From: Caulobacter sp. SLTY
GTDB lineage: Bacteria; Pseudomonadota; Alphaproteobacteria; Caulobacterales; Caulobacteraceae
Direction: 5' to 3'
Assembly: GCF_009905535.1 (NCBI RefSeq)
Contig: NZ_JAAALA010000009.1
Coordinates: 62,001-126,000, forward strand
Length of the DNA: 64,000 nucleotides
Below the pieces are notes generated by a model, which was given only the letters and a program-made list of their open reading frames with translations, was not told the origin of the DNA and searched no databases. Position numbers and translations under genes: made by a program. Below, piece by piece: positions 18,450 through 30,186 of the stretch. Each line of letters starts with the position of its first letter. The stretch's first letter is position 1.

Positions 18450-18463
18450 TGGCGGAGAGGGTG
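18450..18463 (+). repeat. Left attachment core (duplicated tRNA-Ser 3' end)
   Basis: TGGCGGAGAGGGTG is identical to 30097-30110. Flanking bases differ on both sides, so the identity is exactly 14 bp. Confidence 0.88.
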
Positions 18464-18613: not shown

Positions 18614-19762
18614 ATGCCCTCAGTTAACAAGCTCACTGCGCTCCAAGTCAGCCGCCTGACCGCACCCGGCTTCTACTCCGACGGAGAGGGCCTCTACCTA
18701 CGAGTCGATAAGGGGAAGCGATGGGCCTTCGTCTATTTCATGCACGGCAAACGAAAGGAGATGGGCCTTGGCCCTCTGTCGGACGTATCGCTGGCGCGAG
18801 CACGCGAGCTTAAAGCCGCGGCAAGGGCATTGTGGCGCGAGGGCAAAGACCCGATCGAGGAACGCCGAAAGGCCAAAGGGGAAGCGACCACGTTTGGAGC
18901 CTTCGCCGAGTCCATCATCGGCGATTGGGAAAAGGCGTGGAGCAACCCGAAACACCGTCAGCAGTGGCGGAACACACTTTCCACATACGCCAAGGGGTTT
19001 TGGTCCTTACCTATCGACCTGGTCGATACGCACCATGTTGAAAAGGCGTTGAAACCTATCTGGTTGAGCAAGCCTGAGACGGCACGGCGCGTAAGGGCGC
19101 GAATTGAACGGGTGCTGGATGCAGCTAAGGCGAAGGGTCTCCGCAAAGGCGATAATCCGGCCCGTTGGAAGGATCACTTGCGCGGAACCATGGCGGGGCG
19201 AACCAGGGGTCCAAAGCGCCACCATGCCGCAATGCCATTCGCCGAAGTGCCGGCGTTCATGGTGCGCCTCCGTGAGGCTGAGGGGCTGTCTGCGAGGGCG
19301 TTGGAGTTCGCGATACTGACGGCAGGTCGGACTAGCGAGGTGCTTGAAGCCAAGTGGCCTGAGTTCGACCTGGAGGCCCGGATTTGGACTGTGCCCGCCG
19401 AGCGTATGAAAATGCGGATTCAGCACCGCGTCCCGCTTTCAGATCGGGCCGTTGAAATCCTGAAGGAGCTAGAGCCCTTAGGTGGTGACTACGTGTTTCC
19501 GGGCCAAAAGGCGGGCCGGCCGATGTCGAACATGGCGATGCAGATGCTCCTTCGCCGAATGAAGGTGGCCGTTACCCCTCACGGCTTCAGGTCCAGCTTT
19601 CGTGACTGGGTGGGTGAGGTAACCGACCACCCAAGGGAGATTGCCGAGGCAGCACTTGCTCACAAGGTTGGGAGTGAGGTGGAGCGGGCATACCGAAGGG
19701 GCGATGCTCTTGAGAAGCGCCGGGTCTTGATGTGTGACTGGGGTAGGTATTTAGACCAATAG
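18614..19762 (+). CDS. int: Tyrosine-type site-specific integrase (P4-like)
   Basis: A 382-residue recombinase catalysing integration at the tRNA-Ser 3' end. The N-terminal DUF4102-type arm-binding domain (about 1-90) contains GFYSDGEGLYLRV and MGLGPLSDVSLARARELK. A SAM-like core-binding domain follows. The catalytic domain shows Arg in TAGRTSEVLEAKW, the HxxR box HGFRSSFRDW, and the end motif AHKVGSEVERAYRRGDALEKRR carrying the nucleophilic Tyr. Length and order are typical of P4 integrases. It lies at the end of the island far from the intact tRNA gene, reading inward. Confidence 0.95.
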   Translation: MPSVNKLTALQVSRLTAPGFYSDGEGLYLRVDKGKRWAFVYFMHGKRKEMGLGPLSDVSLARARELKAAARALWREGKDPIEERRKAKGEATTFGAFAESIIGDWEKAWSNPKHRQQWRNTLSTYAKGFWSLPIDLVDTHHVEKALKPIWLSKPETARRVRARIERVLDAAKAKGLRKGDNPARWKDHLRGTMAGRTRGPKRHHAAMPFAEVPAFMVRLREAEGLSARALEFAILTAGRTSEVLEAKWPEFDLEARIWTVPAERMKMRIQHRVPLSDRAVEILKELEPLGGDYVFPGQKAGRPMSNMAMQMLLRRMKVAVTPHGFRSSFRDWVGEVTDHPREIAEAALAHKVGSEVERAYRRGDALEKRRVLMCDWGRYLDQ

Positions 19763-19922: not shown

Positions 19923-20288
19923 TTGGCAAAAAATCTTACTACCCACCACACTGAGCTTGAGACTAATCTGTGTGGCGGCATTTCCTATCCGGATTTGAAG
20001 CAGGTTGTTGACTGCTTAGGTTCCACCTGCAGGCCGTGCGGACGGCCATTGTCCAATTCGCAGATTGGACGCCTCCGTCGCCTCCGGACGCGGGTAAACC
20101 GCCTCTCGTTTTTCACTGAGAGCTGCCGCCTGGTCCCGATATCGCTTCTCCAAGACATCGAGGCGATCTGCGCAGAAATGCAGTTGCTATGCCCTGACAT
20201 TCAGGTTTGCCGCACCGCCACTGGGTCGGAGGCTAGAGATGCCGAGCTTCAATTCATCGCAACCTTGGCTGAGAGGCGGGATGCATGA
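19923..20288 (+). CDS. Hypothetical island protein, 121 residues, TTG start
   Basis: I do not recognise this protein. It probably starts with TTG at 19923, because GGAGG lies five bases upstream at the end of a 160-base AT-rich leader, and no better start is in frame. It has an N-terminal CGGISYPDLKQVVDCLGSTCRPCGRPLS segment with several cysteines, then an Arg-rich helix (RLRRLRTRVNRL). The stop overlaps the next ATG by four bases (ATGA), so it is coupled to the small HTH gene. A DNA- or metal-binding role is possible from composition only. Confidence 0.65.
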   Translation: MAKNLTTHHTELETNLCGGISYPDLKQVVDCLGSTCRPCGRPLSNSQIGRLRRLRTRVNRLSFFTESCRLVPISLLQDIEAICAEMQLLCPDIQVCRTATGSEARDAELQFIATLAERRDA

Positions 20289-20461
20289 CCAAGCTTAAGC
20301 CTCAGCCGATCGCTTATCGCATCCGCGATGCGGCGGACGTGATCGGGCTTAGTCGTTCGACGCTCTACCATTTGGCTAAGCAGGGTAAGCTCCGTATCCG
20401 CAAGGTCGCCGGTCGATCACTGATCGCGCGTGAAGACCTGCTGAGCCTGCTTCAAAGCTAG
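20285..20461 (+). CDS. AlpA/excisionase-like helix-turn-helix protein, 58 residues
   Basis: A very small DNA-binding protein, starting MTKLKPQPIAYRIRD and ending LLSLLQS. Residues 13-50 read IRDAADVIGLSRST, LYHLAKQGKLRIRK and VAGRSLIARED, the standard HTH_17 (MerR-like) fold with a wing. Such proteins act as recombination directionality factors or as activators of integrase and early genes in P4-like satellites. ATGA overlap with the preceding gene indicates coupling. In this position it is the best candidate for an excisionase. The function is inferred from fold and location. Confidence 0.88.
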   Translation: MTKLKPQPIAYRIRDAADVIGLSRSTLYHLAKQGKLRIRKVAGRSLIAREDLLSLLQS

Positions 20462-20535: not shown

Positions 20536-21828
20536 ATGAACGGCAGCGCCCTTGCGCTCGCACCGTGGGACGACCCGTGCCCGCAACTTCAGGCCCTTTG
20601 CGATCTAGTTGCCGGCCGCCTGGCCGAGGGCGAGAGTCAGCCTAAGAGGACCAAAGACAATCAGGCTAGATTTCATCGCGCCCTAATTGCTGTCTGTGGC
20701 GTCAGTGCAATTGTTGCAACAGCGAGGGTATCAGACGGAGAAGGGTATCCCGTCTCGTTCGCGAACGGTGACTATGCCGGCGGACCGATAAGCATCGAAC
20801 ACCTTCGCCAACTGCGGAAGCAGATGGAAGGCGTCGGCCTGCTGAGAGTCGTTGGCGGTTTCCACGATCGGGGCGGAATGGGAGGAAGCAGGGTGACCCG
20901 CCTGCATCCCACAGAAGCTTTCCGTGAACTCGTGCAGCGCGCTGGGGTCCGTTCAGCGCACCTGGCGAGGCTTCAGGGCGACCTGGTGGTGATGCGCGGG
21001 CTGAGGCCATCGGGCCCGGAGCCGGAATCGGTGAGGGCAAGCCGGCTGACGCTAGACCGCCTGAACCGGTTGAACTCGAAACACAGTCTGACATTGCCCG
21101 ATGAGGTCTGGGATCAGATCGCCGCTCCTTGGCAGCCCCGGGGGCTCGATGAGTGCCCCGCTCCTGTGGAGTTCCGCGGGATCAACGAGGCGAACGTCTC
21201 GCTACGTCGCATCTTCAAGGATGGATGGGATCGCGGTGGTCGGCTGTACGGGGGGTGGTGGCAGAATGTCCCAAGCAAGCCGCGCAAGCGGCTTCTGATT
21301 GATGGTTGCCCTACCGCGGAATTGGACTTCAGGGCGCTGCATCCCCGCATCCTGTACGCCCGTCAGGGCGAGGAGCCGGAAGGTGACCCCTACACGCTGG
21401 AGGAGTTCGAAGAGGTCATTAGGGGGCAGGGGAAGCGCACTTTCAACAGGATTATAAATGGCACTTGGAACAAGCCCAATAAGTCGAACCCATTAAACTT
21501 CGTCAAAGAGGACAAGGGGACTGGAAGGTTTCAAGAGCGGGCTAGGTTTAGAAAGTATGTCGCTGAGTTTCGTAAGAAGCACGCTCTAATATCTGATAGT
21601 TTTGGTAAGGGGGTCGGAATTCAGCTTCAGTGCGTGGACAGCCAAATAGCCCTAGAGGTCATCGACGCCTTTCTAGCCATGGGTGAACCAATTTATCCGG
21701 TACATGACAGCTTCATCGTTAGGGGCGTCATGAGGGAGAGATTGTGGTCTGTGATGCGGGAGTCATCTTTCAAGATATTAGGTGTTTCAGTGCCTGTATC
21801 CGGGCGTCTTGCGATTCCTTGTACCTAA
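20536..21828 (+). CDS. Polymerase-palm-like replication protein candidate
   Basis: A 430-residue protein of a family usually annotated as hypothetical. Residues about 45-150 look like a winged-helix region (ISIEHLRQLRKQMEGVGLL). The C-terminal half begins GGRLYGGWWQNVPSKPRKR and contains TAELDFRALHPRILYARQG, which parallels motif A of family A DNA polymerases (DYSQIELR). FNRIINGTWNK lies in the motif-B position, and CVDSQIALEVID followed by PVYP-like PIYPVHDSFIV parallels motif C (QVHDE). I infer a small DNA polymerase or primase-polymerase for element replication. GGAGA lies upstream of the ATG. No exonuclease domain is visible. Confidence 0.6.
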   Translation: MNGSALALAPWDDPCPQLQALCDLVAGRLAEGESQPKRTKDNQARFHRALIAVCGVSAIVATARVSDGEGYPVSFANGDYAGGPISIEHLRQLRKQMEGVGLLRVVGGFHDRGGMGGSRVTRLHPTEAFRELVQRAGVRSAHLARLQGDLVVMRGLRPSGPEPESVRASRLTLDRLNRLNSKHSLTLPDEVWDQIAAPWQPRGLDECPAPVEFRGINEANVSLRRIFKDGWDRGGRLYGGWWQNVPSKPRKRLLIDGCPTAELDFRALHPRILYARQGEEPEGDPYTLEEFEEVIRGQGKRTFNRIINGTWNKPNKSNPLNFVKEDKGTGRFQERARFRKYVAEFRKKHALISDSFGKGVGIQLQCVDSQIALEVIDAFLAMGEPIYPVHDSFIVRGVMRERLWSVMRESSFKILGVSVPVSGRLAIPCT

Positions 21829-22033: not shown

Positions 22034-23035
22034 GTGGCAGTGGCGGTAACGAGAAGCGACGTACTGAAGGCGCTTGGCGAGTTTGATGCCCTGGGAAGGT
22101 CCGAATTTCTGGCTGCCTACGGCTTCAGAGCTTCCCGGGACTACGTATTGCGCCATGGGGGCAAAGAGTACGACTCCAAGCCGATCTGGGCCGTAGCTCA
22201 CAAGTGGGATGCTGACGTAGCCCGGCCGCTCAAGGTCAACGAGTTTAGCGGGGGCGCGGCTGACACAGTGAAGAAGCTGCAGGCGCTTGGTTTCGAGGTG
22301 GTCAAGGAGCCTTCTAATCCTGACTGGACCTGGGATGAGCACGTCCTGGCCCTAGAACTCTACATGCGCGATCCGACCACAACGCCTGGTCACGGTAGCA
22401 AAGAGGTTCTTGAGCTTTCCGCCCTGTTGAACGCCTTGGCCCGTCGATCGGGCCTTGTCGGCAACGATCGGTTCCGGAACCCCAATGGCGTCTACATGAA
22501 GCTCATGAACTTCAGGAGGCTTGATCCTGCGGTTCTGGCTGAGGGCAAGAAGGGCCTTTCTCAGGGTGCGGCAGGAGAGGAACGGGTCTGGAATGCCTAC
22601 CTTGGCAAGCTGGACGAGCTACGGGCGAGGGCAGCGGCTATCCGCCTGGCGATCGATGACGCTGAGGTAGACCTAGTACCCGCGGCGGACGACTACGAGG
22701 CCGAAGAGGGCGGCGTTGTGCTGCGCCTCCACAAGTCTCGAGAACGGGATAGGAAGCTCATCGGGAAGAAGAAGGCACAGGTGCTAGCCCAAACAGGAAA
22801 ACTCGCCTGTGAGCCCTGCGGCTTCGACTTTCGGGAGGCGTATGGTGATGTGGGCGATGGGTTCATTGAGGCCCATCATCGTAAGCCCGTTTCGACCCTC
22901 AAGAAGGGCGAGAAGACGCGCCTGGCAGACCTGGCTTTGGTTTGTGCCAACTGTCATCGGGTGCTCCACAAAAGGGGGCTTATGGCAGTTGAAGACTTAG
23001 CCAAGCTGATTGGGATTCGACGTGCGCCGGCTTAG
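22034..23035 (+). CDS. McrA-like HNH restriction endonuclease (type IV candidate)
   Basis: A 333-residue protein, GTG start with GGGG just upstream. Residues about 5-90 (EFDALGRSEFLAAYGF, YDSKPIWAVAHK, EFSGGAADTVKKLQALGFEV) match the N-terminal head domain seen in ScoMcrA-type enzymes. The middle part (WTWDEHVLALELYM, RNPNGVYMKLMNFRRLDP) is the conserved DNA-recognition-like region of these proteins. The C-terminus is an HNH nuclease with a CEPC / CANC zinc site and EAHHRKPVS. Such enzymes cleave modified (methylated or phosphorothioated) DNA. No methylase lies nearby. The gene overlaps the nuclease gene downstream. Confidence 0.82.
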   Translation: MAVAVTRSDVLKALGEFDALGRSEFLAAYGFRASRDYVLRHGGKEYDSKPIWAVAHKWDADVARPLKVNEFSGGAADTVKKLQALGFEVVKEPSNPDWTWDEHVLALELYMRDPTTTPGHGSKEVLELSALLNALARRSGLVGNDRFRNPNGVYMKLMNFRRLDPAVLAEGKKGLSQGAAGEERVWNAYLGKLDELRARAAAIRLAIDDAEVDLVPAADDYEAEEGGVVLRLHKSRERDRKLIGKKKAQVLAQTGKLACEPCGFDFREAYGDVGDGFIEAHHRKPVSTLKKGEKTRLADLALVCANCHRVLHKRGLMAVEDLAKLIGIRRAPA

Positions 23036-23459
23036 CCTCTGCGGTCTGGCGGGAGCGTTCGCAGTGTTCGTCCCGTCCGTCGCCTTCGCTGACCCCTGTA
23101 AGGCTATTCCCGATCGCGGGCCGGCTCCGGCTTGGATCAAACCTGATGCCAAATTCTCGGGTGTCGTCCGGTACATAGTGGACGGTGACGGGTTCTGTTT
23201 GGGTGGTCGAGACCCGACCAGCTGGATTGAAGTCCGCATGGTGGACTTCGACGCGCCGGAGCTTCGCGAACCAAACGGAAGGGAAGCGAAGGCCAAGCTA
23301 TCGGATCTGATCTTGGGCAGGAGGGTGAGTTGCACGGTTCGCCCCGGACGTAACGGACGAGCGGTAACCCACGATCGCGTTTTGGCATCCTGTCAGATGG
23401 GGGAGCGATCAATCGCAACCGGACTGCGGGCCGCCGGCGTTTCAGAGGGCGGTAACTGA
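23022..23459 (+). CDS. Exported thermonuclease-like (SNase) protein
   Basis: A 145-residue protein. The GTG at 23022 gives MRRLSLCGLAGAFAVFVPSVAFA, a clear signal peptide; an in-frame TTG four codons earlier is less likely. The SNase domain shows YIVDGDGFCLG, RMVDFDAPELREPNGREAK and HDRVLASCQ, which keep the Arg-Glu-Arg catalytic set and the metal-binding Asp residues. It would cut DNA or RNA in the periplasm. Its start lies inside the end of the McrA-like gene, so the two are probably co-expressed. It may serve entry defence or nutrient scavenging, but neither is shown. Confidence 0.82.
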   Translation: MRRLSLCGLAGAFAVFVPSVAFADPCKAIPDRGPAPAWIKPDAKFSGVVRYIVDGDGFCLGGRDPTSWIEVRMVDFDAPELREPNGREAKAKLSDLILGRRVSCTVRPGRNGRAVTHDRVLASCQMGERSIATGLRAAGVSEGGN

Positions 23460-23463
23460 GATT

Positions 23464-24501
23464 CTATGCAGCCGATTCAACCGTTTCTCCACCAAGAGAC
23501 AGCAAATCCCCTACGACCATATAAGTGTAAGCCACATACCTGTCAGCTTCGCTCTTCTCAGTGATTGTAGCGTGACTGCCCTTTTGGGCAGCCTGAAATA
23601 TGCTGTCTAAGCGTTCTCCAAGGAAAGATAGATGAGAGCCCACAATTTCCGAGAACCTACTCGATTCGCTGTTTTCCTCAGCATACGCCATAAGGCGATT
23701 TATGTAGTTATCGGCCCCCAGCTTGATAGATTTTTGCTTGGAGCCACTACCCACAATCTTGTCCTCCCTAGCCGGGTATAAAGAATCCGCAAGGTCCTGA
23801 AGTATTCTCCTGCAGCTGTGCACAGCGTTGGATATGTCTTCCGGGTTCTCAGATCGCATGTTTTCGTAAATGGCGGAAAAGCGTTTGACCGCCTCCGGTA
23901 CTCTTAATCCGACTTCTCCATCGACCCTCTGTCGAATTCGACTGAATACATCATCAACGATACCGGAAAATTTAAGTTCATAGTACTGACGCGTGGCATA
24001 GTCGTAGATGAGAGCGCGCCGACTTGCCAGCCTTGTCGAATTTTCCTGTATCGATCGCTTAATAGCATTGCGTTCTAACAGGTTTCCTGAACTGTTTACA
24101 AACTGGTGGGGATTGGCCGAGCTTATGCTTCCATCCTGCGCAGCGCCCAGCGCGATCTTTTGAATTTCGAGTTGTGTCTCAAGCGTTCCGATGCTCTCAA
24201 GGAACATGTAGGTTTCTATGTCTTCGGTCTTCGGTTTCTTCTTCTTATAGCGTCGACCGGAAAGAAGGCCGCGTTTCCAATTTTCCGCGCTCATCCCATT
24301 AGGTTCGTGGGGGTATCCGCTGGCTTCATACTTAAACACCTCTGCGAACTCGAAGTCGTTCAGAAGTCGGGCTAGTCGCGTAGCCTTCAAGGCGCAACGA
24401 TCAAGTGGAATTTCATCTAACTCAATGTTTCTGATAATCTCCTCAGCTAGGCCGAGAGCTTCATCCATTGCTTGCTTAGATGCAGGAATACGTTCGGGCA
24501 T
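23464..24501 (-). CDS. AbiTii/HEPN-like candidate abortive-infection protein
   Basis: A 345-residue cytoplasmic protein, AT-richer than its neighbours. The N-terminus (EALGLAEEIIRNIELDEIPLD, then KATRLARLLNDFEFAEVFKYEASGYP) resembles the AbiTii domain. A middle region has a highly charged helix, and the C-terminal half contains NPEDISNAVHSCRRILQDLADSLYP, resembling HEPN-type helical domains with an Arg-rich active helix. In this location, convergent with the restriction and nuclease genes, an RNase-based abortive response is a reasonable guess, but no canonical RxxxxH motif is certain. The similarity is from memory of family patterns. Confidence 0.55.
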   Translation of the reverse strand: MPERIPASKQAMDEALGLAEEIIRNIELDEIPLDRCALKATRLARLLNDFEFAEVFKYEASGYPHEPNGMSAENWKRGLLSGRRYKKKKPKTEDIETYMFLESIGTLETQLEIQKIALGAAQDGSISSANPHQFVNSSGNLLERNAIKRSIQENSTRLASRRALIYDYATRQYYELKFSGIVDDVFSRIRQRVDGEVGLRVPEAVKRFSAIYENMRSENPEDISNAVHSCRRILQDLADSLYPAREDKIVGSGSKQKSIKLGADNYINRLMAYAEENSESSRFSEIVGSHLSFLGERLDSIFQAAQKGSHATITEKSEADRYVAYTYMVVGDLLSLGGETVESAA

Positions 24502-25339: not shown

Positions 25340-26269
25340 CTACCTTCCAAACAGCCGGCGCAAGGCCAAGTCTCCCGTATCCACGCCCGGAATGTTCGCA
25401 ATGATCTGGTCCGGAAGATTGTCGGGCGTTTCGAACTTAAGGTGCTTGCCAACGGCGTAGATGGGCTGAATTTCAGGGCGATCGTTTCGATAGAAAATCG
25501 CCGTCCGTGCATAAACCTGCACGACCTGGTTGAGCGCGTCCGCTTCTTCGGAACTTACCGTTAGGCTGAACACTCGGGGCAAAACTGTGTAGCTGAGTGG
25601 CACGACAAAAAGGACGCTGAGCCTGGGGGTTACCGGTACTAACATCTCAGGCGCTAGTGCATGCCCGCCGGGCGGAGTGATGTTGTGAAAGAACCCATCG
25701 CCAAAGACAAACTCCCGATCGGGCGAGAATATCACAACATACTTTCCTCGACCTGATACCTCTTTTACGGTTCGCTTGTGTGTAGACCGCAAGTTTGAGC
25801 CGATAAGTACGTTGCGCTCGCGATCTGGAAGCGGCCCTCGTAAATGCTCAGCGAGGCCGACTGCAATTTCTCTGGTCATTGGACTACGAACCGCCAGCGA
25901 CACCAAACATTCGGACAGATTCGAGAGTTCTTGGTCTGAGGCAGACCGGGGAAGGAAGCGCCGCCGCCGTTCTACAGGCAACGGGGTTGGCTCATGATGT
26001 ACGCTTTCAAGCCATTGAATAACGCCGGGGAAATTGCTGTCGGCACGATCGAATTCTTGTTCAAAACTCTCGTCCCAAACAGTCTGCTCTCCCGGCCTGC
26101 CAAGCAAAATATGGTGTCCATTGCCGATGACCCCGAAATTGGCGGGGGTTGAGCGTCTGGTATCGCCGTTGGGAAGCAGCCAATTCACACCACCTTTATC
26201 GTCTGCCCAATGGGCAGATACGCACTCCGGCCACCAATGGTGCCGTTCCGACTTCAGCCGCCGCTCCAT
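25340..26269 (-). CDS. Hypothetical protein with N-terminal HHWWP motif (DUF4238-like)
   Basis: 309 residues from the ATG at 26269, chosen because GAGAGGCGG lies upstream and a longer reading would run into the neighbouring gene. The N-terminus RHHWWPECVSAHWADDKGG and a following NGHHILLG resemble the His-rich start of DUF4238-type proteins, which may bind metal. The C-terminal half alternates beta strands (YVVIFSPDREFVFGDGF, LSVLFVVPLSYTVLP) and ends with a helix ending in QVYARTAIF, again as in that family. No signal peptide. Such proteins occur in defence and mobile loci, but their activity is unknown. Confidence 0.65.
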   Translation of the reverse strand: MERRLKSERHHWWPECVSAHWADDKGGVNWLLPNGDTRRSTPANFGVIGNGHHILLGRPGEQTVWDESFEQEFDRADSNFPGVIQWLESVHHEPTPLPVERRRRFLPRSASDQELSNLSECLVSLAVRSPMTREIAVGLAEHLRGPLPDRERNVLIGSNLRSTHKRTVKEVSGRGKYVVIFSPDREFVFGDGFFHNITPPGGHALAPEMLVPVTPRLSVLFVVPLSYTVLPRVFSLTVSSEEADALNQVVQVYARTAIFYRNDRPEIQPIYAVGKHLKFETPDNLPDQIIANIPGVDTGDLALRRLFGR

Positions 26270-26399
26270 GCCCAAACCCGTCCGCCTCTCACGCGAGAAG
26301 AAACTTTTTGTCGCGTTTAAAGATCGATAGGGAAAGGGGGCCGGGGTCAAGATTGCTGCGTTTGAACGTGCCGCGCTAACTAACAGCTCGGGCCTTTGC

Positions 26400-27149
26400 T
26401 CAACATTTCCAGCCTTTGACAACCTTCGGAGCCTTCTCTCGCTCGCTCCAGGATCGGCCTTCATTACGAGCGCGGCGGTAACGCTTGTCGCACTTTTGGA
26501 ACGCACCTGGCGGAACTGGTTTGCCTAGCTTCAGATAGTCATGTGCGCAGGCGACAATCGCTGCTGCCTCGCCCCCATTCATCCCGGTGTGGATCGCCTG
26601 AATGCGTAGCTTTTCAAACGCACCCGGATCGAGCGTGTGCCCCGGAGAGTTGGAGAAGGCTCGAAAAATTGCCCTTGAATTGCTAACGCTGCTGTAAAGG
26701 GCCTGGCCTAGGTTGTCTTGAAATATCGTGTAGTCATCCCCCGACAGCAAGCAGAGTTGCATGTCTGCGTTATCTAGCTCAACATAAGTTAGCTCAACTC
26801 GTTCCATTACCGGTATTAGGTCGTTATAATTTCCGATGCCGTTCACTGCAAGGTTCCAACCTCGAAACTGCAAATCACCAACGGCGGCCAAGTGGCGGCG
26901 GTTCGCGGCCTCCAGATTGCTTACTGCCGTTACCTGGTGGCTATATAGGTTGCTTACGAACGCGGCTTGCTCTTGCCGAAATGCGGCAACCGAGGATGCA
27001 ACAGCAGCAAACGCCGCCAGAAGTGTGGAGTAAAACAACACCGACTCGCGGTTCTTGAAACGATCTTGGATTGCTCCAAGAGAGCGAGCAATTTTCGACG
27101 CCAACGCCGCTAACCGAGGCTGCCGGCGCTCCTCCTTCAACTTGGGCAT
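26400..27149 (-). CDS. Hypothetical membrane-anchored protein
   Basis: 249 residues from the ATG at 27149 (MPKLKEERRQ), preferred over an upstream start because TGAGGCGG precedes it. A basic N-terminus of about 35 residues leads to one membrane helix at about 38-60 (SVLFYSTLLAAFAAVASSVAAF). A helical region follows (SHQVTAVSNLEAANRRHLAAV), and a C-terminal part contains three cysteines. I do not recognise the family. It is in the same orientation as the HHWWP protein and the recombinase. Membrane-tethered helical proteins of this kind are frequent in defence islands, which is context only. Confidence 0.6.
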   Translation of the reverse strand: MPKLKEERRQPRLAALASKIARSLGAIQDRFKNRESVLFYSTLLAAFAAVASSVAAFRQEQAAFVSNLYSHQVTAVSNLEAANRRHLAAVGDLQFRGWNLAVNGIGNYNDLIPVMERVELTYVELDNADMQLCLLSGDDYTIFQDNLGQALYSSVSNSRAIFRAFSNSPGHTLDPGAFEKLRIQAIHTGMNGGEAAAIVACAHDYLKLGKPVPPGAFQKCDKRYRRARNEGRSWSEREKAPKVVKGWKC

Positions 27150-27215
27150 CGAAGTCCGCCTCAGATAGCTGATCCCGGTTTCCGACTTCAACCAAAGGGC
27201 AAATAAATACAACTC

Positions 27216-27776
27216 TTAAGGCGTTTCCGACCATCCATCCAACGCCCGATAGACGCTGGCCCGACCGATATTGAGCCGCCGCGCAATCTCCGTGGGTCGA
27301 ATTCCTTCAGCCTTTAGAAGGCGAACCTGGTCGACTTCAACCGTCGGCTTTCGGCCGCTATAGCGACCCTCAACCTTCGCCTTCTCGATTCCCTCCCGTT
27401 GCCGCTCTTTCCGAAGATCCGTTTCGAACTCCGCAAACGCCCCTAAGAGGTTGAGCATCAGCCGACCGGTAGTGCTTGCGGTATCAATCTCTCCCTGCTG
27501 TAGCGCCCGGAAGTGAACGCCCTTCGCGGTAAGGCTGTCGATCACCTGTCTCAGGTCAACGATCGAACGAGCGAGCCGATCAAGGCGCGTGACAATGAAC
27601 GTATCCCCTTCCCGGACATAGGAGAGGGCCTGGTCCAGCTGGTCCCTGCCGGCAGTGCTGGTTCCGCTGCGCTTCTCCTCAAAGAGCTTCTCACAGCCCG
27701 CGGCTTTCAGTTGCTCCCGTTGAACGTCCAGCGACTGCCCATAGCTGGAAACCCGAGCATACCCGACCATCGCCAT
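27216..27776 (-). CDS. Serine recombinase, resolvase/invertase family
   Basis: A 186-residue small serine recombinase. The N-terminal catalytic domain begins MVGYARVSSYGQSLDVQREQL with the nucleophilic Ser in RVSS. It continues with RLDRLARSIVDLRQVID (the conserved Arg residues) and GRLMLNLLGAFAEFE. The C-terminal HTH_7 domain (EGIRPTEIARRLNIGRASVYRAL) binds the crossover site. It could resolve multimers of the element or invert a segment. An inverted repeat at 27846-27866 just upstream is a candidate binding site. The start could also be at 27770 or 27791. Confidence 0.93.
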   Translation of the reverse strand: MAMVGYARVSSYGQSLDVQREQLKAAGCEKLFEEKRSGTSTAGRDQLDQALSYVREGDTFIVTRLDRLARSIVDLRQVIDSLTAKGVHFRALQQGEIDTASTTGRLMLNLLGAFAEFETDLRKERQREGIEKAKVEGRYSGRKPTVEVDQVRLLKAEGIRPTEIARRLNIGRASVYRALDGWSETP

Positions 27777-27818
27777 TTGATTGTGTCCCAATAGGTTCTT
27801 AGACCTTGGAAACGTATC

Positions 27819-27917: not shown

Positions 27918-29108
27918 CTATCTGGTGGGGCTTCCAATTCTCGCCAGTAGACCAGCCAAGTTCACATCTCCGGGTCCGTCATCTTTGACGATGCCGTCGG
28001 CTGAGCTCCTAAACAGGGCGCTGAGAATAATCTGGCGCTCTTGGTCGGAAGCTGCCTGCTCTAGCGTCAGTGCGAGGTAGGTCGAAGTCATCACTGCGCG
28101 TTCCTCCGCGTCCTTACGCAGGTGGTGTTCGCTTAGGTACAGCCTGGTAAGGAGCCGGCCGATCCAAAAAGCGAGCGCTCCTAAGGAGCCAAGGCCGGCG
28201 GAAAGAATGAAGTAGACTGGTGTGGGGACCTTGACGCTCGCGTTTCCCAACAAAATCAAGCTCGTAGCACCAAAAGCAGCCGCGAATCCAATGACTGCCA
28301 GAGGAAAATACCATTTCAACCGCTCAATAGATTTCTCTTCCGCAGCAGCGTGTCGGATGGATTTGTCCTGCCAATATTCAACAGGGGCTTTGAGCTTCAT
28401 GTGCTCCGTATACGTCGCCTTAACATCAGACAGGTCTTGAATTGCTTGCCTTTCGACGGCGCGTTGCAATTTTTCTCGTTTCTTCCACTTCGCCAGATGC
28501 TTTAGCGTGAGTGTTCGGCCCTTTGTTACCGTTCCCGCAACCAACTCTTCCCACTGAACCTGTCGTGAACGCTCAGCCTCAACCAATTTGGCGACCTCTG
28601 ATCTAAGGTGCTCTCTAGTGTTGGCTCTTTCGGCGCGAAGTCGGGCCGCTAGGTTTTCCGGTGGAATAAGCGCAGGTGCAGCAAACTGAATTAGGGCGGT
28701 AAACTGCTCACCGCTCAAACCTTGCCTGAAATTGACTCGTCCGCGGTGCATTGAGTAGGCGAACGCCGCGAGGCCCGGATTGCTCAGGTGGGCAATCGCC
28801 CGAAGACGTTCTGCTTCATCGCTGGTGTGGTGGAGGAGGCGCTCGCCTGGAACCGCGAAGGCAGACGCAATGATGCTTGCTGCGCTCGTTAGCGGCTGGC
28901 TTTGTTGAGCGTTCAATTCGATGTCGGTTTGAAGCTGCCTAAGGCGTTGCTGGACTTCAACTTCCGTCCCGTAAGGGTCGAAAGCGGCTGTGTTAGACAG
29001 CCATTTCCAAGCTTCAACTTCAGCACGGGCAAATGAGCGGGCATCGTCCCAGCTACGAAGCACAACGGTTCCGCCGTTGTCTCCCAAGTCGATCCGTACG
29101 GCTTCCAT
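27918..29108 (-). CDS. DUF6161-like membrane protein
   Basis: 396 residues from the ATG at 29108 (MEAVRIDLGDNGG), with AAAGGCGAC before it; this start avoids overlap with the upstream gene. A long helical, charged region (about 60-280) probably forms coiled coils. Two membrane helices follow at about 283-305 (YFPLAVIGFAAAFGATSLILLG) and 312-335. The C-terminus (HHLRKDAEERAVMTSTYLALT, then ALFRSSADGIVKDDGP) matches the pattern of DUF6161 proteins. The family is found in accessory regions and some members lie near defence genes; the function is unknown. Confidence 0.65.
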   Translation of the reverse strand: MEAVRIDLGDNGGTVVLRSWDDARSFARAEVEAWKWLSNTAAFDPYGTEVEVQQRLRQLQTDIELNAQQSQPLTSAASIIASAFAVPGERLLHHTSDEAERLRAIAHLSNPGLAAFAYSMHRGRVNFRQGLSGEQFTALIQFAAPALIPPENLAARLRAERANTREHLRSEVAKLVEAERSRQVQWEELVAGTVTKGRTLTLKHLAKWKKREKLQRAVERQAIQDLSDVKATYTEHMKLKAPVEYWQDKSIRHAAAEEKSIERLKWYFPLAVIGFAAAFGATSLILLGNASVKVPTPVYFILSAGLGSLGALAFWIGRLLTRLYLSEHHLRKDAEERAVMTSTYLALTLEQAASDQERQIILSALFRSSADGIVKDDGPGDVNLAGLLARIGSPTR

Positions 29109-29136
29109 GGTGTCGCCTTTCACTCTGCGTACCCGA

Positions 29137-29907
29137 TCATTTGAGCAGTTCCGGGCTGAGCTCATACTTTGCAGGCGCTGCCTCGTACCGGGCCTTCTCC
29201 GCTTGATAGAGCGTTTCGTCTGCGAGCAACTTGTTCATCGCTTTGTAACACGTTCGTGCCACTATAAATCCCAGTCCCGCAAATAACAGCAATCCGATGA
29301 AGAGCATCCGGGGCAGCCAAGTTTCAATAAGATCGAACCACCAAGGCGTAATGAATTGACGATATTCATAATCGTCATGTGTGCGAACCTTGATCGGAAT
29401 TAGCCCATCCTCGTTAAATACGCGCATATATCGAGTCGAGTAGCTGTTTCCCCAATCTAACCGCCACCACATGTAGACCTGTACGCGGGCTCCGGGGGCA
29501 ATTTTGCCTACCAGAATGTCTTTCGCGTCGAGGTCTACTGTTCGGCTTATCGATTTTCCCTCGGATTTTACGACAAGAAGAGCCGGGTACGGAGCCGCCT
29601 TGAACTGGATTCGGATCGGCTTTGATTCGGTAACTCCGTTGTTTTGAATTTCCACAAGAGCGTAACTATAATCTTCCGTATCTGTGAAATCATCGATTGC
29701 CGGCCTTGTTATGCCGGCATTTTTCATGACTACCTGAGGGTCGGCCGAGTTCAGAGTCGGAAACGGATACCAGTAGGAAGGGTATACATTCGTAACAAGT
29801 CCGCGGTCCGTGAAGGCGGACTTTATTCGGTCTTGAAAGGCAAATGTCGTTACCGCTAGAATGAAAGGAATAATGAGTATTTGAAGCGTGATTGTAAGCG
29901 TCTTCAC
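29137..29907 (-). CDS. Hypothetical protein with two membrane segments
   Basis: 256 residues from the GTG at 29907, which has GGGGGAG seven bases upstream; a TTG at 29931 is a weaker alternative. An N-terminal membrane helix (ITLQILIIPFILAVTTFAF) leads to an extracytoplasmic beta-rich domain of about 170 residues rich in Tyr and Trp (NVYPSYWYPFPT, RVQVYMWWRLDWGNSYSTRYMRV). A second membrane helix lies at about 205-227, followed by a cytoplasmic charged tail. The gene is AT-rich compared with the host genes. It pairs with the DUF6161-like gene 28 bases downstream, so the two may form one membrane complex. Confidence 0.6.
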   Translation of the reverse strand: MKTLTITLQILIIPFILAVTTFAFQDRIKSAFTDRGLVTNVYPSYWYPFPTLNSADPQVVMKNAGITRPAIDDFTDTEDYSYALVEIQNNGVTESKPIRIQFKAAPYPALLVVKSEGKSISRTVDLDAKDILVGKIAPGARVQVYMWWRLDWGNSYSTRYMRVFNEDGLIPIKVRTHDDYEYRQFITPWWFDLIETWLPRMLFIGLLLFAGLGFIVARTCYKAMNKLLADETLYQAEKARYEAAPAKYELSPELLK

Positions 29908-30020
29908 TGGATTTCTCTCCCCCTTGCCCAAGGGGTTCAGCCTACAGTCGTGCTCTGTGACCGCGCAAGCAGGTGCTGTGCTTACTGTCCTGGCATCGGG
30001 AAGGGCAAGGCCGTGCTGTT

Positions 30021-30096: not shown

Positions 30097-30186
<90 letters not shown>

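Follow-up and report, generated by a model that had tools for sequence, protein, structure and literature searches.

We analyzed a 64,000-nucleotide stretch of the Caulobacter sp. SLTY genome (contig NZ_JAAALA010000009.1, positions 62,001 to 126,000 of the forward strand; hereafter the window), in which a gene at 20536..21828 on the plus strand, located within an island at a tRNA-Ser gene, encodes an intact, compact relative of the family-A DNA polymerases. We are nearly certain that the palm of this protein is that of a minimal superfamily-A polymerase of the TV-Pol kind, akin to the phage protein divPolA2. TV-Pols, a kind of minimal superfamily-A polymerase found in transposons and viruses, were named in 2008 (Iyer, Abhiman and Aravind, PMC2579912), and the homologous Caudoviricetes proteins were named divPolA2 in 2024 (PMC11348598). 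By analogy with a studied relative, we consider it slightly better than an even chance that the polymerase serves the replication of the island, probably as a primer-making enzyme. A preliminary description of the gene had proposed a new type of replication module; this novelty does not hold, given the 2008 description of TV-Pols, the priming shown for CCPol-MP and the naming of divPolA2, and the single-gene replication enzyme that it had in mind is no more than a possibility, while the family-A-like palm that it had recognized is borne out by the register shared with DNA polymerase I (PolA), by shuffle controls, by an AlphaFold2 model and by Foldseek matches.

The open reading frame (ORF) starts with ATG, occupies exactly 20536..21828, encodes 430 amino acids and is preceded by a Shine-Dalgarno-like AGGAG that ends 6 nt upstream of the start codon. 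The protein matches no Pfam or NCBIfam family at E<=1, and the Pfam scan recognized no exonuclease domain, in agreement with the earlier remark that the PolA exonuclease is missing. A family of unknown function, phrog_4756 of PHROG, matches residues 211-418 (E 1.1e-39). The host genome carries one copy of the gene and separately encodes its own PolA; the island polymerase is therefore not a housekeeping copy. Searched by sequence against the PDB, the protein alone yielded two rows, neither of them a polymerase. The possibility of a true PolA with trimmed ends was rejected on this result and on the missing Pfam match.

Conservation was assessed in alignment A1, whose 25 rows include 8 phage or plasmid sequences, and in alignment A2, with 42 rows (the window protein and 41 relatives), none taken from phage or plasmid collections. 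Residues R236, R250, D264, Y286, R296, K300, S369 and D391 are invariant in A1, and G235, R236, R250 and D264 in A2, the last three in 42/42 rows. The nearly invariant columns of A2 include E262, D284 (39/42), Y286, R296 (40/42, the other rows having one gap and one Pro), K300 and D391 (each 40/42, with two gaps each) and H390. The three motifs named in the preliminary description are all present: motif A as ELDFRALHP (residues 262-270, 21319..21345) with the catalytic Asp264, motif B of the fingers (residues 296-308, 21421..21459) as R296-GQG-K300 followed by RTFNRIING (301-309) with Asn304 and Asn308, and motif C as YPVHDSF (residues 387-393, 21694..21714) with the catalytic Asp391, all on the plus strand. 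D284 is probably the fingers Asp meant in the 2008 description of TV-Pols.

These elements were compared with PolA by hhalign, using 26 bacterial polymerase domains (from 25 loci and the host PolA). The hairpin, QN(I/V)P, motif A, RxxxK, the Gln of LQ and motif C of A2 share one register with the PolA set. The hairpin GGRLYGGWWQ (residues 234-243, 21235..21264 on the plus strand), which carries the invariant Arg236, falls as GGRLYGGWWQN on PolA TGRLSS..NLQN; D264 coincides with the Asp of motif A, R296xxxK300 with the fingers-helix Arg and Lys, Q365 with the Gln in LQ/MQG, and H390-D391 with the HD of motif C. Restricted to match columns, the palm-only comparison scored 31.9; none of 150 column shuffles exceeded 26.3, and the reversed palm reached 10.5. 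The probabilities given by hhalign are low, at 1.5, 11 and 22 percent (E 0.014, 0.0028 and 0.001, the palm-only comparison giving 22 percent), so the predicted fold weighs more.

The structure prediction and comparison with polymerase palms that the preliminary description proposed were carried out. The AlphaFold2 model, built from the 42 rows, reached a predicted local distance difference test score (pLDDT) of 84.2 and a predicted template modelling score (pTM) of 0.84, and each of the 50 PDB entries listed by Foldseek is a DNA polymerase of the A family (best E 7.0e-5). The hairpin strands are modelled at residues 223-228 and 234-239, preceded by helices 164-181 and 189-196; most VIA alignments start at 141-161. 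The model also matches the 'DNA replication protein' of Zamilon virus (E 6.6e-4, prob 1.00), which we take to be kin of the Sputnik TV-Pol-helicase. Chance resemblance to PolA was ruled out by the in-register alignment, the column-shuffle and reversed controls and the structure search.

The N-terminal domain (residues 1-150, 20536..20985, plus strand) is modelled as helices with a two-strand wing. The PDB search with profile A1 gave two rows, the 'predicted transcriptional regulator' 1xma (E 0.024, N-terminal part), presumably PadR-like, and DNA polymerase I 7r0k (E 1.8). The winged-helix-like N-terminus of the preliminary description thus survives in a weaker form, the model and profile match hinting at such a character. 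Separate ORFs that match only the N-terminal part of the profile were observed on the Paracoccus plasmid pBEN (4728-5351 of locus L029, about 4 kb from a full-length copy) and, more weakly, in loci L016 and L019.

The residue numbers of PolA used here, such as Glu710 and Phe762, follow in part PMC7581432. The position of Glu710 is occupied by His269 in the window protein, and in A2 by His in 29 rows, Asn in 7, Gln in 2 and other residues in four (n=42). Likewise, Phe762 corresponds to Asn304, and this column of A2 holds Asn 18 times, Leu 10, Ala 5, Met 3, Thr 2, Val 1 and Ile 1, with 2 gaps. Both sugar-selecting residues of PolA are replaced in nearly all aligned members, a modestly new observation. 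In A1, with its 25 rows, only the phage protein L028 has Glu at the 710 position, and AUR84708, the published exemplar of divPolA2 and a near relative of L028, keeps this Glu as well; the change at this position is therefore not general. Since the sugar-selecting positions are changed here, yet Glu is kept in L028 and AUR84708, the window polymerase may conceivably use ribonucleotides.

The relation to divPolA2 was assessed with both profiles. Profile A2, which is free of phage sequences, matches AUR84708 at 131.6 bits; profile A1 matches it at 310 bits, a score that is not independent because A1 contains a near relative of AUR84708. The island proteins and divPolA2 thus form one family, which is modestly new. 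As the window protein lies in a chromosomal island with an integrase and with no recognized phage structural gene, we regard it as a homologue of divPolA2 and not as divPolA2 itself. The divPolA2 section of the 2024 paper draws no link to bacterial islands, and the main text, in the portions used, names TV-Pol once, in the background (PMC11348598). Among the papers listed by the literature searches, no title or abstract opening links divPolA2 to the TV-Pols of bacterial islands, which we offer as a lead and not as a claim of priority; the passages used from a Rheinheimera phage paper (PMC6715854) contain nothing on the family.

No significant match to a 2008 TV-Pol sequence was obtained, and a whole-record search of cyanophage Ma-LMM01 gave nothing; membership is therefore assigned from the defining features and the context. 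Among the Ma-LMM01 ORFs, gp030, which adjoins transposase genes, ranked first with A1 (E 0.084); with A2 it ranked fourth (E 5.9), and with the palm profile second (E 0.91). In a forced alignment the hairpin Arg, the Gln, the Asp of motif A and the Lys of the fingers agree, with a gap at R296 and Asn at D391. We infer that gp030 is the 2008 TV-Pol protein of this phage.

Relatives occur sporadically in bacteria, in 10/199 related genomes (E<=1e-3) and in 30/385 members of the class (E<=1e-5), the own genome counted in both, as expected for mobile genes. A scan of genome contigs yielded 13 loci; Limimaricola, Leisingera, Tateyamaria, Nioella, Salinihabitans and one Rhodobacteraceae metagenome-assembled genome account for 9 of these. 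By tblastn, 170 of 50,697 phage records contain a relative, some in two places; the hosts are Vibrio (142), Aeromonas (14), Pseudoalteromonas (5), Shewanella (5), Klebsiella (2), Pseudaeromonas (1) and Pseudomonas (1). Among the 40 phage rows listed, 39 are annotated as hypothetical and one belongs to an unannotated record. A scan of viral contigs with the single protein found 4 stretches that fit a pattern, 0 of which encode a relative. Relatives were found in 4/72,556 plasmid records, and 80 percent query coverage was reached in none; on these grounds a plasmid replication protein was ruled out. In a 51-sequence tree, the seven phage proteins form one cluster among bacterial ones, with modest support (81). 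Three relatives (L003, L018 and L024) are split between frames and two (L040 and L051) have an in-frame stop inside the match, a sign of decay such as mobile genes would be expected to show. Four 1.4-Mb genomes (L059-L062) encode distant relatives of 455 amino acids that match the profile chiefly in its N-terminal part and less fully in the palm; these may be a separate branch. In Vibrio phage 1.161.O, a gene annotated as 'CRISPR associated protein Cas1' (L028 1383-2273) lies about 3.6 kb from the divPolA2-type gene.

The island itself appears complete. A perfect 14-bp direct repeat at 18450-18463 and 30097-30110 encloses approximately 11.65 kb and corresponds to the 3' end of the tRNA-Ser(CGA) gene (30097..30186, minus strand), the integration target; its two copies form the left and right attachment-site cores. 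The GC content is 53-60 percent in 2-kb windows, compared with about 70 percent around the island. Pfam identified a tyrosine integrase with Arm-DNA-bind_3, Phage_int_M and Phage_integrase domains (18614..19762, plus strand) and a serine resolvase (27216..27791, minus strand). Just upstream of the polymerase lies a gene for a 58-aa HTH_17 protein resembling an excisionase or regulator (20285..20461, plus strand). Several defence-like genes make up the cargo: an HNH endonuclease with a type IV restriction-like N-terminus (22034..23035, plus strand), an AbiTii-like protein (23464..24501, minus strand) and a DUF6161 protein with an AbiZ-like C-terminal part (27918..29165, minus strand). No phage structural gene was recognized in the island (14 ORFs searched with Pfam, 7 proteins with PHROGs).

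Further ORFs of the island include one of 121 aa (19923-20288); one of 149 aa (23010-23459), whose N-terminus is hydrophobic and signal-like and whose match to a staphylococcal nuclease-like domain is weak (E 0.12); a DUF4238-like gene (25340-26506) just below the Pfam cut-off (24.8 vs 27 bits), adjoined by an unmatched 270-aa ORF (26400-27212); and a 264-aa ORF on the minus strand (29137-29931) with two hydrophobic stretches and no Pfam match, which overlaps the start of the DUF6161 gene and is perhaps a membrane partner of its product.

The flanks of the island were compared with 60 other genomes of the genus, with distances reckoned from the match rows. Among the matches listed, both flanks were found on one contig and in the same order in genomes G019 (51.6 kb apart) and G037 (19.9 kb), compared with 11.7 kb in the window by the same measure; in G014, G028, G035 and G040 they lie on different contigs. 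No empty attachment site is present among these matches. The differing lengths between the same flanks point to a hotspot and not to an empty site, which suggests that the island occupies an integration hotspot.

The genes near the polymerase were surveyed at 36 loci, comprising the window, the 13 loci of the genome contig scan, 2 of the 4 plasmid records and broad stretches from 20 of 38 other carrier genomes; one Limimaricola genome contributes two loci, and none of the loci is from a phage. About 8 kb was covered, less at contig ends, one member of each cluster was identified by Pfam, and the counts are raw, with no random-locus control. A tyrosine-integrase cluster lies near 25/36 loci and a resolvase cluster near 11/36, so that one or the other accompanies 26/36 (window included); restriction-modification-like clusters lie near 14/36. 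In 2008 TV-Pols were reported beside lambda-type integrases, resolvases and transposases, with several alphaproteobacterial carriers, and these contexts were read as replicative elements, with primase and polymerase activity predicted (PMC2579912). We count the recombinase context near 26 loci in favor of a role in island replication, as it is the context reported for TV-Pols.

Under this proposal the integrase would excise the island, and the N-terminal domain may help the polymerase to grip DNA. The palm, with the metal-binding Asp264 and Asp391 and the RxxxK fingers, would catalyze the synthesis of a short strand on a single-stranded template, possibly starting without a primer, and a host helicase and host polymerase would complete replication of the excised form. 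This priming or short-synthesis role is suggested by analogy with CCPol-MP. Several observations weigh against it. Neither recombinase cluster is present at 10/36 loci within the stretch covered. No helicase was recognized by Pfam among the 14 island ORFs, no D5_N match occurs anywhere in the genome of the window, and a search restricted to D5_N detected this helicase domain in just 1/21 carrier genomes, on a different contig and close to its start. Pfam likewise recognized no oligonucleotide/oligosaccharide-binding (OB)-fold partner among the island ORFs near the polymerase, although MP-like OB-fold proteins were found by structure prediction and the search here was Pfam-based; CCPol, as the part of PMC10061031 dealing with it reports, extends primers without MP and cannot start them. 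In barbaviruses divPolA2 stands beside a regular PolB elsewhere in the genome, and the authors, in the section concerned, favored repair or RNA polymerase roles (PMC11348598). In addition, the island holds defence-like cargo, so the polymerase could itself be cargo.

In that case it would be a DNA polymerase that repairs DNA, fills gaps or acts in defence, dispensable for replication of the element, which we judge somewhat unlikely. The type IV restriction-like, AbiTii-like and AbiZ-like genes of the island, the restriction-modification-like clusters near 14 loci, the unrecognized helicase partner and the mention of repair among the roles proposed for divPolA2 (PMC11348598, in the section used) all fit such cargo; however, the polymerase has no match to a PADLOC model at E<=0.1, recombinase clusters are found near 26 loci against 14 for the restriction-modification-like ones, and contexts of this kind were interpreted in 2008 as replicative elements (PMC2579912). 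The replaced sugar-selecting residues raise the question of whether the palm makes RNA and not DNA, as a single-subunit RNA polymerase or RNA primase. This appears quite unlikely, as structural Z scores to A-family DNA polymerases are at least as high, AUR84708 and L028 keep the Glu, and no T7-type promoter-recognition domain was recognized, the N-terminus being winged-helix-like. An inactive relic of a mobile element is highly improbable: split and stop-bearing relatives show that decay occurs in the family, but the window copy has a full open frame, conserved catalytic residues and a Shine-Dalgarno-like sequence. A role in replication of the tRNA-Ser island is therefore still the reading we favor. 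In a bolder and unlikely version of it, the protein would be a one-protein primase-polymerase in which the winged-helix domain replaces an SSB-like (single-stranded DNA-binding protein) partner and His for Glu710 and Asn for Phe762 permit ribonucleotide or mixed-nucleotide starts, such enzymes being common to islands of alphaproteobacteria and to phages of about 80 to 150 kb.

The window provides an intact and compact representative of a type of polymerase whose biochemistry, in the literature consulted, comes from the CCPol-MP pair. The defined ends of the island make possible a direct test of priming in the replication of its excised form, and the recently named phage protein divPolA2 becomes tied to proteins of bacterial islands.

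The 2008 description gave TV-Pols an RRM (RNA recognition motif)-like palm with two metal-binding Asp, a hairpin with an invariant Arg, fingers with RxxxK and an Asp, a two-helix antiparallel thumb before the hairpin and no nuclease; a subset has an extra N-terminal globular domain, predicted to be all-helical and found also as stand-alone proteins (PMC2579912). The window protein shares with them the palm with two Asp, the hairpin Arg, the RxxxK fingers, the lack of a recognized nuclease, the integrase/resolvase neighborhood and an alphaproteobacterial carrier. In contrast, its N-terminal domain is modelled as helices with a two-strand wing and not as all-helical, and no D5 helicase was recognized beside the gene. 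For divPolA2, the sections of the 2024 report used here describe a palm with catalytic Asp, no exonuclease, an unusual N-terminal domain and no thumb of the PolA kind (PMC11348598). The window protein belongs to the same sequence family, with a catalytic palm, no recognized exonuclease and an unusual N-terminal domain; it differs in having His at the 710 position and HDS at motif C, where the exemplar has Glu and FDE, and in being encoded by a chromosomal, integrase-bearing island instead of a phage.

CCPol of SCCmec, counted as a TV-Pol, primes DNA de novo on single-stranded DNA in vitro with its partner MP, uses deoxynucleoside triphosphates much better than ribonucleoside triphosphates and gives no priming products when its catalytic residues are mutated, according to the portions of two reports that concern these assays (PMC7581432, PMC10061031). 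Like this PolA-SSB primase, the window protein is an A-family polymerase of a mobile element. The CCPol operon, as described in those portions, includes MP, an SSB-like partner that binds single-stranded DNA, and a helicase, neither of which was recognized for the window protein, and CCPol retains the equivalents of Glu710 and Phe762, which are His269 and Asn304 here. With DNA polymerase I (PF00476) the window protein has in common the palm and fingers fold and the active-site motifs, and it is distinguished from that enzyme by the lack of a recognized exonuclease or Pfam match and by the altered sugar-gate positions.
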